From positions 124,001-188,000 of the forward strand of contig NZ_WOTN01000003.1 of NCBI RefSeq assembly GCF_010993745.1: a stretch of DNA of 64,000 bases, written 5' to 3'. This DNA comes from Fodinicola acaciae. GTDB lineage: Bacteria > Actinomycetota > Actinomycetes > Mycobacteriales > HKI-0501. Made by a program: the position numbers and the translations under genes. Numbering within the stretch: position 1 is the first letter of the stretch; every line of letters begins with the position of its first letter. A model generated the notes under the pieces. The model was not told where the DNA came from, ran no database searches, and saw only the letters and a program-made list of their open reading frames with translations. This document shows positions 9,004-52,349 of the stretch, in pieces.

Positions 9004-9060
9004 TTGGTCGCATGGCCACCATGCGTGCGTCCAACGCAAGCATGGTGGCCATGCGACCAA
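9004..9060. repeat. Palindromic repeat type A, copy 1
   Basis: Inverted repeat with 25-base arms and a 7-base loop (GTCCAAC), one mismatch between arms. The core ATGGCCACCATG is shared with four other copies. It lies between the divergent DyP operon and the AbiEi-like gene, where neither gene would need a terminator. There is no T-tract on either side. Confidence 0.9.
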
Positions 9061-9125: not shown

Positions 9126-10088
9126 ATGAAACGGGGCCGATGGGCTGACCAGCCGGAGCTTCTGCGCAAGCGCAGCAGGCTCAACGTGATCAAGGCAAGC
9201 ACGCTTCGCGAGCTTGGCATGAAGGACAGCACGATCTATCGCCGCTGTCGTCCGGACGGGCCTTGGCGTCGACTGCTGCCAGGCATCATCCTTCTCCAGT
9301 CGTCACCTCCGACCGCGGACCAGCGTGCGGTGGCCGCACTCCTGTACTGCGGGCCACTGAGCCAGATCACTGGCGCCGAGGCGTGTCGCCGCCACGGTCT
9401 GCGCCTGCCAAAACTCGGGGACGACCGTCTCCACCTTCTCAATCCGCACGAGACGAAGGTCGGCAGCAGCGGCTTCGTGCTGATCGAGCGAACGGCTCGC
9501 CTGCCGGAGCCGGTGGTGCGCGAAGGCATCCCGCTGACGCCTCTCACCCGAGCCGTACTCGACCTCACCAGGCGGATCCCGGAGGTCGAGCCGGTTATGC
9601 AGCTGGTCATCGAAGCGATCCAGCGGGGCCACTGCGTGCCAGAGGCGATGTCGAAGGAGTTGGAGATCGGTGGCCGACGCGGCTCCGCCATTCCTCGCCA
9701 GGTGCTCTCGCGGATCACCGACCTCCGTTCCGTCGCGGAATCTCACGGTCGCGACCTGAGCATGCGGATGAAGGTGCCTCCGTCGGACTTCAACGTCGAC
9801 GTGTACGACGCCAACGGCAGGTACATCGGCAGGCCTGATCAATGGTGGGACCACATCGCCTTGGCACACGAGATCGACTCGTTCGACTTCCACTTCTGGA
9901 AGGACGACTACGCACGTACCGTTCAACGCGACACTCGATACGCGGCCGCTGGGATCATCGTCGTACGCACGCTGCCATCGCGGATCCTGCAGGAACCGGA
10001 CGAGGTGCTGGCCGAGCTGGAAGCGGCGTATCAGGCGGCGCTCGCGCGACCGCGGCCCACCGTCCGCGCGATTCGTCGCGCCGCCTAG
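9126..10088 (+). CDS. AbiEi-like antitoxin-fold protein with nuclease-like C-terminal region
   Basis: Protein of 320 residues. The N-terminal region (about 20-110) resembles the winged-helix AbiEi antitoxin type: IKASTLRELGMKDSTIYRRC followed by PWRRLLPGIILLQ, then a helical domain with LSQITGAEACRRHGL. The C-terminal part (about 225-300: FNVDVYDANGRYIGRPDQWW, ALAHEIDSFDFHF, ARTVQRDTRYAAAGIIVVRT) looks like the DUF559/Vsr-type restriction-endonuclease-like region common in actinobacterial AbiEi relatives. No AbiEii nucleotidyltransferase partner is adjacent, so it is an orphan. It is exactly bracketed by two type A palindromes. Function unknown; a DNA-binding or abortive-infection role is inferred. 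Confidence 0.65.
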   Translation: MKRGRWADQPELLRKRSRLNVIKASTLRELGMKDSTIYRRCRPDGPWRRLLPGIILLQSSPPTADQRAVAALLYCGPLSQITGAEACRRHGLRLPKLGDDRLHLLNPHETKVGSSGFVLIERTARLPEPVVREGIPLTPLTRAVLDLTRRIPEVEPVMQLVIEAIQRGHCVPEAMSKELEIGGRRGSAIPRQVLSRITDLRSVAESHGRDLSMRMKVPPSDFNVDVYDANGRYIGRPDQWWDHIALAHEIDSFDFHFWKDDYARTVQRDTRYAAAGIIVVRTLPSRILQEPDEVLAELEAAYQAALARPRPTVRAIRRAA

Positions 10089-10090
10089 TT

Positions 10091-10137
10091 CGCATGGCCA
10101 CCATGCTTGCGTTGGACGCAAGCATGGTGGCCATGCG
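10091..10137. repeat. Palindromic repeat type A, copy 2
   Basis: Perfect 22-base inverted repeat around the triplet TGG, starting two bases after the stop codon of the AbiEi-like gene. It could end transcription of that gene, but no T-tract follows and the same element occurs in places where termination makes no sense. Confidence 0.92.
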
Positions 10138-14949: not shown

Positions 14950-15054
14950 GTGGCAGCAGTCCTCGGATCGCGAGCGGGCTAACTCCCTAAGCCTAACGAC
15001 CTCTGGCCGTACGCGATGGCGGCATGGCCGTACGCGGCGATCGGGCCGGATGGT

Positions 15055-15101
15055 CGCATGGCCACCATGCGTGCGTCTGACGCACGCATGGTGGCCATGC
15101 G
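15055..15101. repeat. Palindromic repeat type A, copy 3
   Basis: Perfect 22-base inverted repeat around CTG, two bases beyond the stop codon of the minus-strand GyrI-like gene and about 105 bases before ffh. It may end or process the upstream transcript, but lacks a T-tract. Confidence 0.92.
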
Positions 15102-28058: not shown

Positions 28059-28083
28059 GCGCGGGGCTCCCTGCGTGCGATAG

Positions 28084-28600
28084 ATCAAGCGTACGTTGGG
28101 TAAATGGGTTGCGTCTCTTGTTTGTTGCGTCGGGTGGATGGTGGGCTTTCTAGTTGTTGCGTTGGGGAGGTGGTTGCGTTTTCTGTTTGTCGCGTCAGGG
28201 GGTGGTGGGTTTTTCGCCTGCGCGGCGGGCGCTCCTGCGCGGAGGGCGACCTCAAGGGAGGGGCGCGTGGATGCCAATCGGTGTGCATGGGGGTGCGGGC
28301 GGGGGTTTGTGGGCGGGGCTGGGTTTTCTGGGCAAGCCAGGTCACGTGTGGGAAGCAACCCGTCGGATGGAGCCGATGATCTTTGCTGTAGCGCTAAATG
28401 TCTGCCTTGCCGGTTTGTGTTGTGGTGGTAAGGCCTCCTTACGTGCGTCTGACGCACGCATGGGGGCCTTGCGAACATCGAGTGGCGGCGGGGGTGGCGC
28501 TGGTGTGACTGGTATGGCTGACAAGACATCAAAACGGACATCTTTGCCGGCCAGCAGTCATGACAGCATCCGCGAACCTCTCAAGGCGGACATTTAGGCC
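28084..28600 (+). repeat. Long non-coding repeat, copy 1
   Basis: The 596-base gap between phoD and the M14 peptidase holds this element and no credible gene. Its left part (28084-28200) is a run of degenerate direct repeats built on GTTGCGT; from 28192 it matches the copy at 49673 with 54 consecutive identical bases, then long near-identical stretches. Landmarks are TGTAGCGCTAAATGTC at 28387-28402, palindrome B at 28430-28470 and a partial inverted end GACATTTAG at 28589-28597, after which the peptidase terminator begins. Open frames inside it run through the palindrome and look non-coding. Confidence 0.8.
28430..28470. repeat. Palindromic repeat type B, copy 1
   Basis: Imperfect inverted repeat around ACGTGCGT-CTG-ACGCACG. 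The left arm is AAGGCCTCCTTACG and the right arm CATGGGGGCCTT. The central part is the same as in type A palindromes; the outer arms differ. Confidence 0.85.
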
Positions 28601-28641
28601 GCGCCCTCCCCTTGAGGTCGCCCGCGCGAAGGGGAGGGCGC
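28601..28641 (-). terminator. Terminator hairpin of the M14 peptidase gene
   Basis: A perfect 13-base-pair stem (GCGCCCTCCCCTT with AAGGGGAGGGCGC) and a 15-base loop, 14 bases beyond the peptidase stop codon. It borders the right end of the long repeat. No T-tract follows. Confidence 0.75.
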
Positions 28642-28654
28642 AACCAGCAACCAG

Positions 28655-38832: not shown

Positions 38833-38965
38833 CACCAGTCACCGCCCGGGCCGCCACTCAATGTTCGCAAGGCCCCCATGCGTGCGTCAGACGCACGTAA
38901 GGAGGCCCTACTACCAAAACCCCAACGCACCAAACAGAAAACCCAACCACCCTCCACCGCAACAA
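38833..38965 (-). repeat. Short, inverted copy 3 of the long repeat, with palindrome B
   Basis: Read on the minus strand this matches the other two copies on both sides of a type B palindrome (38871-38907): the GGTTGGGTTTTCTGTTTGG-type GTTGCG repeats before it and the GTGACTGGTGTGGCTGGCAA segment after it. The middle block of about 200 bases present in the longer copies is missing. It fills the 279-base gap between the small membrane gene and smc together with the next palindrome. Confidence 0.7.
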
Positions 38966-38966
38966 C

Positions 38967-39013
38967 CGCATGGCCACCATGCGTACATCCAGCGCACGCA
39001 TGGTGGCCATGCG
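38967..39013. repeat. Palindromic repeat type A, copy 4
   Basis: Inverted repeat of 22-base arms with three mismatches near the centre (left arm has GCGTACAT where others have GCGTGCGT). It lies seven bases beyond the smc stop codon and abuts the short copy of the long repeat. Confidence 0.9.
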
Positions 39014-39020
39014 ACCAAAC

Positions 39021-42596: not shown

Positions 42597-42717
42597 ACCA
42601 TCTCCGGATGTCGCAGTCGACTCAGCCGTTTAACCCGGACACTTTTCGCGATGACCGGGTGGACGGGGGATGAGAAGGCCGACGCCGTGTGAGTGGAGGT
42701 GCACCGGCGGGGGAAAG

Positions 42718-42734
42718 GGCCTGTCGCACAGGCC
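42718..42734 (-). terminator. Short hairpin after the small coiled-coil gene
   Basis: Seven-base-pair stem GGCCTGT-CGC-ACAGGCC, 17 bases past the stop at 42751 in the direction of transcription, followed by CTTTCCCCC. Plausible terminator before smc. Confidence 0.55.
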
Positions 42735-42750
42735 GCCTTGGAGGCGAAAG

Positions 42751-42948
42751 TTAGGTCAGGGCTGGTTCTTCCAGTCGGATCGCGTCCTCGGATACGGCTA
42801 CCGCCGCGTGCAGCCGGTCGTTGTCGGCGCGCAGCCGAGCGACCTCGAACTCCAACGCACGTACCCGAGCGCGCAGCCGATGTACCTCATCGGTGAGACG
42901 CCGGTCTGGCGCCGTACCGACGTGGCCGAGCAGGGCCTTCGCCATCAT
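42751..42948 (-). CDS. Small actinobacterial coiled-coil protein
   Basis: Protein of 64-65 residues, starting at one of two adjacent ATG codons (42948 or 42945) behind GAGGAG; spacing favours the second. The N-terminus MAKALLGHVG is followed by a heptad-like helix (RRLTDEVHRLRARVRALEFEVARLRADNDRL) and ends LEEPALT. Similar short coiled-coil proteins occur at this place near smc in other actinobacteria, but I know of no function. The upstream in-frame extension to 43050 has a poor start context. Probably oligomeric and cytoplasmic. Confidence 0.72.
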   Translation of the reverse strand: MMAKALLGHVGTAPDRRLTDEVHRLRARVRALEFEVARLRADNDRLHAAVAVSEDAIRLEEPALT

Positions 42949-43142
42949 GACTCCTCGTTGCAGCGCCAGCTGGTTGCGGGCGCAGACTTTTGAACCTCGG
43001 CAGTTGTACGTCACTCCAAGGCGGTCACCCCAGTGTCCGCCGGGTGGCACGACCGGTCAAGTTGGTCCCCCCACAGCCCGGTCGCACCTTGCTGACCAGC
43101 ACAAACACTCTCCTAGGCACTTTCGCGCCCTCCCCGCGCCGG

Positions 43143-43427
43143 TCAGCGCTCCACAAATCCTACCGCCATCCCCCGGGCCGGTGACCAGCGCTCCACCACC
43201 GCGTCGACCCGGCCCGGCGTACGGCCGCTGTTGAGCGCCACCAACAGCCGCTCACAGTCCGTTTTATCCCCTTCGGCGACCACCTCGACGCGGCCGTCCC
43301 GAAGGTTTGACGCGTAACCCCGCAGGCCGAGTTCCAACGCGCGAGCACGCGTCCACCAACGAAAACCGACGCCCTGCACGTGACCGCGCACCCACGCGGT
43401 CAGCCGTACGACCTCCTGCTCCGCCAC
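43143..43427 (-). CDS. acyP: Acylphosphatase
   Basis: Small enzyme of 94 residues that hydrolyses acyl phosphates such as carbamoyl or acetyl phosphate. The phosphate-binding loop and catalytic arginine are in [13 protein letters not shown]; the catalytic asparagine is in [16 protein letters not shown]. Both match the family consensus, with Y-A-S-N in place of the usual W-V-R-N. GTG start at 43427. Located between mutM-side genes and smc, as in mycobacteria (Rv2922A). Confidence 0.9.
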
Positions 43428-43495
43428 GCTCGCGACCTTATCGCCGGTCCGCTTAGGGGTGATCAGGAGATTGCTATGCGTGTCGCGTATAGCTG

Positions 43496-47531: not shown

Positions 47532-47647
47532 AGCGGTTTCTTGGCGGCTTCTCTGTGATTGGTGACAGCGCTGAGCGGCCCGCTGCATGCAGACCGAAGA
47601 AAGAGGCTACCTCAGCAACCCGTCCGCGTCGAAATCGGCCTCAAGGT

Positions 47648-47694
47648 CGCATGGCCACCATGCGTGCGTCCAGCGCACGCATGGTGGCCATGCG
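47648..47694. repeat. Palindromic repeat type A, copy 5
   Basis: Inverted repeat with 22-base arms around CCA and one central mismatch, five bases past the stop codon of the SepIVA-like gene and 117 bases before the DUF177 start codon. Same core as the other type A copies. Confidence 0.92.
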
Positions 47695-47699
47695 AGCTT

Positions 47700-48862: not shown

Positions 48863-49423
48863 CTAACCTGGGACGGCCTGACCGTACCAAAGGGTGCACT
48901 CTCCGTACGCACGCTGGCGCACCGCGACGAGTGGATCAGGCCACATCCACGGCTCGTCCCGCGAGGAGCGTTCCACCACGATTGTCGCGTTTTGCCGCAG
49001 CCAGCCGTTTTCCCGCAGGTCAGTGAGCACCTTGCGCAGATCGTCGGCCGGCAGCGCGTACGGCGGGTCGGCGAAGACGACGTCGTACGCGCGCGGCGCA
49101 TGGCTCGCCGCCAGCCGCTCGACGGCGGTCGCCTCGATGGTGACTTCGAGGCCGAGGCTGGCGGCGTTCTGACGCAGCGTGACCAACGCCGGTCTCGCGT
49201 TCTCGACCAGCGTGACCGCGAGCGCGCCGCGCGAGGCCGCCTCCAGGCCGATCGCTCCGGAGCCGGCGTAGAGGTCGAGGAAGCTGCAGTCGGCCAGGTC
49301 GACCAACGAGTTGAGGGTCGAGAAGAGGGCTTCGCGCGTGCGGTCGGCGGTCGGTCTGGTGTTACGGCCAGGTGGCACTTGTAGCCGGCGGCCACCGGCC
49401 ACACCGGCCACGATTCTTGTCAC
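48863..49423 (-). CDS. rsmD: 16S rRNA (guanine966-N2)-methyltransferase
   Basis: SAM-dependent methyltransferase of about 186 residues for G966 of 16S rRNA. MTRIVAGVAGGRRLQVPPG and TRPTADRTREALFSTL are typical of RsmD; SAM binding is in FLDLYAGSGAIGLEAASRGA and the catalytic motif is VFADPPYALP. GTG at 49423 is chosen from family length; the open frame extends to 49576 into the repeat region. Upstream, 49424-49544 holds only low-complexity G/T-rich sequence in which I see no gene. Confidence 0.93.
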   Translation of the reverse strand: MTRIVAGVAGGRRLQVPPGRNTRPTADRTREALFSTLNSLVDLADCSFLDLYAGSGAIGLEAASRGALAVTLVENARPALVTLRQNAASLGLEVTIEATAVERLAASHAPRAYDVVFADPPYALPADDLRKVLTDLRENGWLRQNATIVVERSSRDEPWMWPDPLVAVRQRAYGECTLWYGQAVPG

Positions 49424-49544
49424 GGGGGTGAGCCTAGGTGGTGCGGTCTTGGGCTTGGGGAGTGGCGCGGTGGGGCATGGGTGAGCTGTGGGCTGGCGGG
49501 GGCGGTGGCGGGGCAGTTGGCTGAGGCGGGGCAGTTTTGGTGCG

Positions 49545-50130
49545 TTGGGCAGGTAGTTGCGGCGTGGTTGCTGCATGGAGTGAGGGTGGTTGCATCTCCT
49601 GTTTCTCGCGTTGTGGAGGCGGTTGCGTCGTCCCTTGTTGCGTTGGATCGGTGGTGGATTCGCCCGTTTGTTGCGTCAGGGGGTGGTGGGTTTTTCGCCT
49701 GCGCGGCGGGCGCTCCTGCGCGGAGGACGACCTCAAGGGAGGGGCGCGTGGATGCCAATCGTGTGCATTGGGGGGTGCGGGCGGGCGTTTGTGGGCGGGG
49801 CTGGGTTTTCTGGGCCGACATTTTGGAAGCAACCCGTCGGTCTGGATGCCAGCGATTGCGCTGTAGCGCTAAATGTCTGTCTTGTCGGTTTGCGTTTGGT
49901 AATGGGGCCTCCTTACGTGCGTCTGACGCACGCATGGGGGCCTTGCGAACATCGAGTGGTGGCCGGAGTGGTGCTGGCGCGACTGCTGTGGCTGACAATG
50001 CAGGTGAGGCGGGCCGACTGCGTAATACTTGTTAAACAAGACATCAAACCGGGCATTGTTGCGAGCTGCCAATCACGGCAGCATCACTGGCCTCTTCAGT
50101 CGCATTCACCACACGACATTTAGCGCTACA
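49545..50130 (+). repeat. Long non-coding repeat, copy 2, with terminal inverted repeats
   Basis: Fills most of the 786-base gap between rsmD and pepC; no credible gene is seen. The left part (49545-49680) is made of degenerate GTTGCGT-type direct repeats; 49673-49726 is identical to 28192-28245. A 16-base sequence TGTAGCGCTAAATGTC at 49862-49877 is repeated perfectly in inverted orientation at 50115-50130, enclosing 269 bases that include palindrome B. These ends resemble the terminal repeats of a non-autonomous mobile element, but I could not identify target-site duplications. Confidence 0.78.
49906..49942. repeat. Palindromic repeat type B, copy 2
   Basis: Inverted repeat GGCCTCCTTACGTGCGT-CTG-ACGCACGCATGGGGGCC with a few arm mismatches. 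The same 37 bases occur at 28432-28468 and, inverted, at 38871-38907. It lies within the enclosed part of the long repeat. Confidence 0.87.
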
Positions 50131-50209
50131 CACGCGCTCCTGGTCCATATACTGGATCTTCTCGCCACCTATCGGGACGCCGACGGCTCCTCGGCCGCGC
50201 AGGCGCCTT

Positions 50210-51532
50210 TTACCGAGCGAGAGCGCCCATCGGGTCCCAGGCTGGCAGGACGATCGGGTCGGTGTCGAGGGCGGCGGTCAGGTTGGCGGGCAGGGCCGAG
50301 CGGCGGGCGGCGATGACGAAGACGTATTCGCCGAACCAGGAGTCGTTCATGGTCCAGAAGCCGTCGTTGCCCTTGTCCTCGCCCCAGCTGTTCTCGACCC
50401 GCCACCGCCGCGGCGCGCCGTCGACCACGTCGACGCCGGTGAACAGCATCGCGTGGGTCATCTGGCTTTCGTGGTGCAGCAGCCGATCGGCTTTGCCGAG
50501 GCCGAAATCCGTATCATAGACGGATTCGTAATCGTAAAGCCGCACGTCCCACATGCCGAGCTCGGTGCTCATCTGCTGACCGACATCGCAACCGAACCAG
50601 ACTGGCTCGCCGCCCACGAGGCTGTCCATCGCGAGCTTGCGCAGCACGTCGATCTCGGTATTCACATACACGACCGGCGGAGCCTCGACGATGTTTCCAA
50701 GGTATTGCACGGTAAACAGCCGCCCGGCGGGACTGGACGGTCGCGGGTCGTGCACCAGGCAGACATAGTCGTCCAGCGGCAGTTGGACGTACGTGTCGGC
50801 GAACTCCGCCGGCGTCAGCCAGCCGTCGCGGTGGAAGACCTTGTCGTCGTCCTTCCACTGCCACAGAAACGTCCGCGGCGGCGTGCCGAGGTGAATGCTC
50901 AGGACGCGGTGTACGACCTTGAGGATCTCTTCCTTGCGCTCGCGCCGCGCCGGCTCGTCCGGCAGCGCGCGCAGCGCGCGGGCACCTTCGCGCAACACCT
51001 TGCGCAGGATGCCGTTCATCGCGCCGGTCGCCGCGGCGCTGTCGGTCTCCGGCATGGCGACCTTGGGCACCAAGCCATATTTGCGGACCAGCGCGGCGAA
51101 CATGTGCCACTGGCCGCCGTCGTCGATCGGCGACGACAGCAGGTGCGCCACCGTACGGTCGTCGACGTCGCGGTCGGCCGTCTCGATGATCGCCTCAAGG
51201 AAGTAGTTGGCGCGCTCCAGCTTGTCCCACCACTGGACGTACGCCTGGGAGAACTCGAAGTCCTTCACCCCGAGCTTGGCGGCCGCGCCGACCCGCAGCA
51301 GGTTGAGGCCGGCGAACATCCAGCAACGGCCGGACTTTCCCTGGTTGGTGACCTTCCAGTCGTCCAGCAGGTGCGACACCGAGCCGTCGATGCCGGTCAC
51401 CACCCGCCGGTCCAGGGCGATGTCGGCGACCGCGGTCTGGGTCACCGCGTTCTGCATCAGCCGGTAGGCCGGCCTGGCCGCGAAATCCTTGTCGAAGAGT
51501 TCGAGGTGTTCGGTCCGCAGAGTGCGCTCCAT
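50210..51532 (-). CDS. pepC: C1 family aminopeptidase C (bleomycin hydrolase)
   Basis: Cytoplasmic papain-like cysteine peptidase of about 440 residues. The active site is complete: Q and C in NQGKSGRCWMFAGLN, H in SQMTHAMLFTGVD and N in RVENSWGEDKGNDGF. The family forms hexameric barrels with the C-terminus lying in the active site and trims peptides or inactivates bleomycin. The frame is open to 51655; the ATG at 51532 (MERTLRTEHLELF) fits the family length. No signal peptide. Terminal gene before the long repeat at 49.5-50.1 kb. Confidence 0.93.
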   Translation of the reverse strand: MERTLRTEHLELFDKDFAARPAYRLMQNAVTQTAVADIALDRRVVTGIDGSVSHLLDDWKVTNQGKSGRCWMFAGLNLLRVGAAAKLGVKDFEFSQAYVQWWDKLERANYFLEAIIETADRDVDDRTVAHLLSSPIDDGGQWHMFAALVRKYGLVPKVAMPETDSAAATGAMNGILRKVLREGARALRALPDEPARRERKEEILKVVHRVLSIHLGTPPRTFLWQWKDDDKVFHRDGWLTPAEFADTYVQLPLDDYVCLVHDPRPSSPAGRLFTVQYLGNIVEAPPVVYVNTEIDVLRKLAMDSLVGGEPVWFGCDVGQQMSTELGMWDVRLYDYESVYDTDFGLGKADRLLHHESQMTHAMLFTGVDVVDGAPRRWRVENSWGEDKGNDGFWTMNDSWFGEYVFVIAARRSALPANLTAALDTDPIVLPAWDPMGALAR

Positions 51533-51578
51533 GGTGAGGAACGCTATATCAGCGAACAAACTCCGCGTAGTCCTCGCA

Positions 51579-52349
51579 TCACTGGACGTCCGGCATCGTC
51601 CACGTCGGCCCGTGGTCGCCGACCGGTACGAGATGCGTGACCGGATCCGGACCATCGAAGAAATGCAGCAGGAAACCCGGTGGCTCGGACCGGAAGGTGA
51701 CCTCGGTGGCGCCGGTCAGGTCGAGGGTGACCTGGCGCGCCGTGCTCGGCGACACCGTCACCGTCGTGCCGCCAAAACGTGCGCTGACGGACCGGTGGAT
51801 GTGACCGGTCAGCACGCGTACGACGTGCGGATGGGCCGCCAGCACCTCGGCGAAACCGGGAGCGGTCAGGCCGATCGCGTCCATGCCGGCGATGCCGGTC
51901 GCCATCGGCGGATGGTGCAGCGCGACCAGCGTCGGCGTGTCGGGCCGCTCGGCGAGGGTGGAGTCCAGCCAGGCCAGCCGGTCGGCGGACAGCTCGCCGG
52001 CGGCCGAGCCGGGGATGAGCGAGTCGAGCACCACCAGCCGCGTGTCGCGGATGTCCACCGCATACTGCACGAACCCCTCGCCCGGCAACGAGAACACCTG
52101 CCGAGCGGCGGCGCGATCGTCGTGGTTGCCGAGTACGAGGTGCACCGGCCACGGCAGGCCGGCCAGCAGCGGCCGCAGCCGTTCGTACTCGGCGACCTGG
52201 CCGTTGTCGACCAGGTCGCCGGTGATCACGACCGCGTCAGGTGCGTACGCGGCGACGGTCCGCAGGGCCGTACGCAGGCCGGCCTCCGGTCCGTCGCCGG
52301 CAGGTCCGACCGTGAGGTGCGGGTCGGACAGGTGCGCTATCAGCGTCAT
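51579..52349 (-). CDS. Calcineurin-like phosphodiesterase (CpdA-like)
   Basis: Metallophosphoesterase of 256 residues related to CpdA cyclic-nucleotide phosphodiesterases. All metal motifs are visible: AHLSDPHL, VVITGDLVDNG, LVLGNHDDR, VALHHPP and LTGHIHRSVSA. Substrate could be cAMP, another cyclic nucleotide or a phosphodiester in lipids. The ATG at 52349 overlaps the recG stop by four bases (ATGA), so it is translated together with recG. The frame extends further upstream inside recG, without an alternative start that makes sense. Confidence 0.88.
   Translation of the reverse strand: MTLIAHLSDPHLTVGPAGDGPEAGLRTALRTVAAYAPDAVVITGDLVDNGQVAEYERLRPLLAGLPWPVHLVLGNHDDRAAARQVFSLPGEGFVQYAVDIRDTRLVVLDSLIPGSAAGELSADRLAWLDSTLAERPDTPTLVALHHPPMATGIAGMDAIGLTAPGFAEVLAAHPHVVRVLTGHIHRSVSARFGGTTVTVSPSTARQVTLDLTGATEVTFRSEPPGFLLHFFDGPDPVTHLVPVGDHGPTWTMPDVQ

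Follow-up and report, generated by a model that had tools for sequence, protein, structure and literature searches.

The large non-coding repeat that recurs in the 64,000-nucleotide stretch of Fodinicola acaciae DNA analysed here (called the window; C3:124001-188000 in a genome of 8.86 Mb in four contigs) belongs to a dispersed family of modular, non-coding elements of about 0.4-1.1 kb. With a probability of roughly 0.6, we consider these to be recently active, non-autonomous mobile elements of a MITE/BOX-like kind, the insertion or survival of which is coupled to replication. Dispersal, polarity and genome position together favour a mobile DNA element. New observations are that most elements point against the replication fork, with the same bias in both replichores, that they are nearly absent around the origin, and that single-copy mutations are spread about evenly over conserved and variable modules. 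Literature searches did not describe the family in what they listed, which is no proof of absence. Bacterial genomes commonly carry repeats dispersed between genes, the movement of which is often unexplained; inverted ends built of ~33-bp units, together with a symmetric polarity and a gap around the origin, make the question whether replication places repeats testable by comparison of strains.

Copies in the window and anatomy of the family

A 517-base query gave at least 107 matches in the genome (40 of 352 candidates were scored), and the core motif was found at 141 sites genome-wide at up to 3 mismatches versus 2 sites for a reversed-pattern control. This genome-wide search, which a first-pass annotation of the window had proposed, places the repeat in a dispersed family beyond the window copies. 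Modules were mapped in 101 stretches amounting to 2.064 Mb or 23% of the genome (71 stretches of 20 kb at core sites, 29 elsewhere and the window itself), in which they form 142 clusters. The gene analysis was performed on 101 elements that are flanked by predicted genes on either side and hold MID or INN, or LC together with T1.

Alignments of 16 short and 19 long copies yielded the full plan of the element: an array (U) of ~33-bp units, a core (LC, 61 bp), a middle module (MID), an optional hairpin module (PB), an AT-rich motif (T1), an inner module (INN), an inverted core and an inverted array, so that the full form mirrors itself about its centre and the two cores face one another. Both inverted cores are kept in 37 of the 101 elements, where array matches average 2.5 on the left and 1.0 on the right side, and the inverted core arms are also visible in the self-alignment of one copy. 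Variation of the arrays leaves the outer ends of the elements ill-defined. We read the short copies as internally deleted versions of the long ones, element A retaining a piece of the right core (Table 1). Long palindromic inserts, N1 and N2, are nested within some elements (L061, L064, L047, L063 and L078), and some of these inserts were apparently lost between short direct repeats.

Table 1. Position and composition of the repeat copies in the window, numbered from its first nucleotide; the outer limits of elements A and B are approximate. Percentages are identities to the module consensus.
Feature	Position	Strand	Evidence
Element A, compact full plan (array, core, middle, hairpin, AT-rich motif, inner remnant, inverted core)	28094..28632	+	module matches
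Element A, tandem array of ~33-bp units (U)	28094..28209	+	three overlapping U2 matches; minus-strand fold
Element A, core module LC	28208..28267	+	98%
Element A, middle module MID	28266..28366	+	91%
Element A, hairpin module PB (type B palindrome)	28386..28482	+	95%
Element A, AT-rich motif T1, part	28521..28541	+	module match
Element A, inner module INN, remnant	28567..28597	+	module match
Element A, right core LC', inverted, partial	28600..28632	-	E 2e-4; pairs with left core in predicted folds
Element B (array, core, middle, hairpin, AT-rich motif, part of inner module; without right core)	49537..50181	+	module matches
Element B, core module LC	49689..49748	+	96.7%
Element B, hairpin module PB	49861..49956	+	93.8%
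Element B, AT-rich motif T1	50016..50057	+	92.9%
Fragment C, hairpin PB and array units	38857..38965	-	PB 95.7%, U2 89.1%

The two long copies are joined by an exact match of 54 bases, the longest between them, which starts at 28192 and 49673 exactly as first annotated, and the module matches bear out a type B palindrome in elements A and B and in fragment C. The annotation had given the long copies as 28192-28497 and 49673-49970, which is too short (Table 1). Element A aligns to 49588-49998 with 83% identity over 423 columns (E 6e-119). The shorter inverted relative reported at 38833-38965 was recovered as well: the segment 38826-38926 matches at 88% (E 5e-31), and fragment C consists of the palindrome and array units only, without the core. 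That the long copies occupy the two largest gaps of the window did not hold, since by our own gene predictions the first rank belongs to 49307-50209 (903 bp), and 28059-28654 (596 bp) comes only fourth. The second largest gap by these predictions, 42597-43495 (899 bp), carries no module of the family.

Coding potential, RNA structure and mutation pattern

Two frames of the inner module look protein-like by eye; INN was rejected as protein-coding on the basis of pN/pS, stops, length changes and Pfam. Across 75 copies the best frame has a pN/pS of 0.59-0.64 and 38 stops in 4316 codons, the other frames range from 0.69 to 0.99 (about 0.7-1.0), and 24 copies are longer or shorter than the mode of 178 bases, in most cases by just one or two. 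With no conserved frame in these copies and no Pfam match to INN at E<1, the earlier non-coding reading is supported. Remnants of a protein gene or a dead insertion sequence might account for the INN frame with the lowest pN/pS, which is open over most of its codons, but the values of the other frames, the frequent length changes by one or two bases and the Pfam result make such an origin highly improbable.

Element A folds better than shuffled sequences on both strands (z -5.7 and -3.0), and its predicted fold consists mostly of core-core and hairpin pairing; inverted repeats alone would give such an excess over shuffles. The covariance analysis proposed in the first-pass annotation gave a weak signal over 72-73 copies: covariation in LC and MID is near nil, with the sole exception of one compensatory change in the core, which is a single haplotype carried by a whole subfamily. 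No Rfam match reached the gathering score in the window, a relaxed search at six loci returned only sub-threshold matches (one microRNA model, on a palindrome), and no promoter-like site was found in element A. The folding of both strands and the compensatory subfamily change could be expected of a family of structured small RNA genes, a proposal to which we give very little credence in view of the scarce covariation, the Rfam result for the window and the lack of a promoter-like site in element A. The elements had been annotated as "DNA or RNA elements"; the non-coding part of that description stands, and between the two options the location and orientation of the copies speak for mobile DNA.

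The modules differ in their conservation. Family-wide, LC and T1 copies have median identities of 96.5% and 95.6% to their consensus, compared with 84-91% for U, MID, PB and INN, and shared variants amount to 1.9% in LC, 4.1% in T1, 9.2% in MID and 11.0% in INN. Single-copy (private) mutations were determined as 0.80% in LC, 0.70% in MID, 0.75% in INN and 0.56% in T1, and purifying selection on resident copies was not seen in this comparison of modules. The test is rough because existing variants can mask new mutations and lead to an undercount in the variable modules; by our own estimate, up to about two-fold constraint on LC is compatible with the private-mutation data. In our reading, copies decay neutrally once inserted, whereas the lineages that give rise to new copies keep LC and T1 unchanged, as would be expected if movement requires these sites. 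Alternatively, the shared variants could stem from gene conversion between copies.

Placement among genes and along the replichores

Genes were predicted with our own codon-usage script (1772 genes, with approximate gene starts), and none of the 101 elements overlaps a predicted gene. The elements reside in 44 convergent, 48 tandem and 9 divergent gaps, as compared with 44 convergent, 149 tandem and 96 divergent gaps of at least 200 bp that are devoid of an element; they are thus enriched in convergent and depleted in divergent gaps (p 3e-8 and 5e-7). In 39 of the 48 tandem gaps, the element is closer to the upstream stop codon. For the pneumococcal BOX and RUP repeats, an excess in convergent gaps has been interpreted as a sign of parasitic mobility (PMC3049150).

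The same placement could result from a cellular role as transcription terminator or insulator, in which the transcript runs through hairpin cores into an unstructured, C-rich array, a potential binding site for Rho, and convergent and tandem neighbours are shielded. The complement of the array in element A is C-rich and, as part of the minus-strand transcript, is predicted to be almost wholly unpaired; sequence and predicted fold agree with what is typical of Rho-dependent terminators, about 78 nt of unstructured RNA rich in C and poor in G. A 78-nt stretch with (C-G)/78 ≥0.3 is present at 66% of the 136 gene 3' ends that face a gap with an element, compared with 4.2% of 237 ends without an element and 0.6% of 1276 coding stretches. 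A terminator role is also consistent with the location behind genes, including the tandem cases near the upstream stop, and with the observation that none of the 101 elements has a type A hairpin (a separate repeat described below) within 250 bp, even though one adjoins fragment C in the window. However, the C-rich strand comes last and adjoins the opposite gene, where it could hardly protect that gene, the core has as many private mutations as the other modules, and most genes lack the element. Placement behind genes is moreover predicted by insertion tolerance (PMC3049150). We therefore regard a terminator or insulator as an unlikely explanation of the family. As the arrays give C-rich, G-poor, unpaired RNA, the elements may nevertheless affect transcription even if they did not evolve for it.

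The reading as mobile DNA coupled to replication draws on the orientation of the elements. Two perfect parS sites are located at C4:591 kb, and the GC skew is reversed near 1.25 Mb on C1, whereas almost every stretch of C2, and likewise of C3, has a skew of the same sign; with the contig order deduced from skew and lengths, the chromosome would comprise two arms of about 4.4 Mb. Complete elements are directed against the fork in 62 of 77 cases (p=6e-8) and all elements in 74 of 101 (p 3e-6). The two replichores agree, with ratios of 31:7 and 31:8 (against versus with the fork) for complete elements. When all 142 module clusters are considered, 24 could not be oriented and the others are divided into 79 against and 39 with the fork. 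Convergent gaps provide a test free of gene-direction preference, and the ratios there are 24:7 for complete elements (p 0.003) and 31:13 for all (p 0.010). Genes themselves are biased towards the leading strand (1004 of 1772), a bias exceeded by the polarity of complete elements (p 1.5e-5); gene direction contributes too, complete elements opposing the genes in 26 of 38 tandem cases. Independently of the sampled stretches, 68 of 85 left-type core sites identified genome-wide (up to 2 mismatches) are directed against the fork (p 2e-8). Up to a distance of 1.5 Mb from the origin, the 85 sites are represented by only 3, against an expectation of 29 (p 1e-11). The type A hairpin, which is likewise intergenic, served as a control and shows no such depletion: 18 of 50 sites among the matches listed (17 expected), and 13 of 35 perfect sites as counted by eye (about 12 expected), fall within this distance. 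The polarity suggests a role of the replication fork, either in insertion itself or in determining which orientation persists.

A polarity that is strong and equal in both arms, and the scarcity of copies around the origin, would also befit a polar chromosome-organising sequence that binds nucleoid or segregation proteins or acts as a fork-polar barrier. Yet polar motifs known so far are short, the family was not found in G001, the only further genome of the genus (74% complete), and its copies decay without detectable constraint, all of which renders this possibility quite improbable.

Comparable loci and known mobile systems

The LC core was searched in 200 genomes of the order and matched 13, namely the genome under study at E 7e-55 and 12 others at 1e-5 or weaker; T1 together with INN matched 6 of 298 genomes, which include our own and five others at 2e-4 or weaker. 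The matches outside the own genome were weak and short, and nothing comparable was found in these sets of 200 and 298 genomes. In G001, a 347-base query retrieved the hairpin alone, in four short matches. In G001 and in a further genome (G002), rsmD comes immediately after recG, while element B and further genes lie between them here; this interval (49424-52346 in the window) includes a gene for a bleomycin-hydrolase-like C1 peptidase. Between rnj and ftsK, our genome has an element and G001 has a hairpin and another gene. Genes were gained or lost at both loci, and neither presents a clean empty site.

Like MITEs, the elements have no gene or open reading frame of their own, possess inverted ends and occur in many dispersed intergenic copies. 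The pair of inverted cores retained in 37 elements corresponds to terminal inverted repeats, but arrays lie outside these cores, and the elements are larger than MITEs, internally repetitive and devoid of a detected target-site duplication or parent transposase. The longest direct match between the flanks was 4.6 versus 4.7 in shuffled pairs (n=37, with the element ends ill-defined). No gene-bearing, autonomous relative was seen among the 142 clusters in 2.06 Mb, and one split candidate resolved into a pair of partial copies located in separate gaps. BOX of Streptococcus pneumoniae, compared by description (PMC3049150), is likewise modular and intergenic, with a variable tandem array and an excess in convergent gaps, and is thought to be mobile. 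Its array is internal (boxA-boxB(n)-boxC), whereas here arrays are at both outer ends and inverted. According to the same source, the strand bias of BOX and RUP mirrors the coding bias, with 60.8% of BOX copies on the leading strand, in contrast to the 80% of complete copies directed against the fork in our family.

REP/BIME sequences mobilised by TnpA-REP (Y1) transposases resemble the family in their palindromes and many intergenic copies, but are shorter by a factor of at least ten. A search for the Y1 transposase (PF01797) gave no match in the own genome, while control matches were obtained in 5 of 14 genomes, and mobilisation of the RAYT/REP type was ruled out on this ground. A link to a group II intron or retron was discarded as well. 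The only RVT_1 match of the genome is a reverse transcriptase with an open frame of 422 codons on C4 (L222, G000:C4:365843-366430), which has no convincing module nearby (best E 0.006), shows no Rfam intron there and is unlinked to the repeat. Eukaryotic foldback elements have inverted ends built of short tandem repeats. By description, the ends of our elements are constructed in the same way, in a bacterial host.

For the elements as replication-coupled mobile DNA, we infer mobility itself, the recognition of LC and T1 and the coupling to replication. An enzyme supplied in trans would recognise the core and the AT-rich motif, and insertions would persist almost exclusively behind genes. The coupling could arise, for instance, if the inserted strand is the one that becomes exposed at the lagging-strand template, or if the other orientation is selected against. 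IS200/IS605-family Y1 transposases act at the lagging-strand template (PMC6006769). The mobilising enzyme of our family may have been lost or may be of another kind than Y1. A narrower proposal, namely that a gene-less element spreads only via the fork as single strand of the lagging-strand template, with the help of a non-Y1 enzyme and excluded from the origin-proximal third, is possible but remains doubtful in our judgement.

The type A hairpin is a near-perfect palindrome of ~50 bp that occurs in the window at 9005-9059, 10088-10137, 15049-15101, 38967-39016 and 47645-47695, and at 151 sites in the own genome as compared with 3 in G001 and 0 in G002. Within the 2.06 Mb, 33 sites lie outside elements and have neighbouring genes, and those located behind a gene are separated from its stop codon by a median of 3 nt. 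Several paired changes suggest that type A is a maintained hairpin at gene 3' ends.
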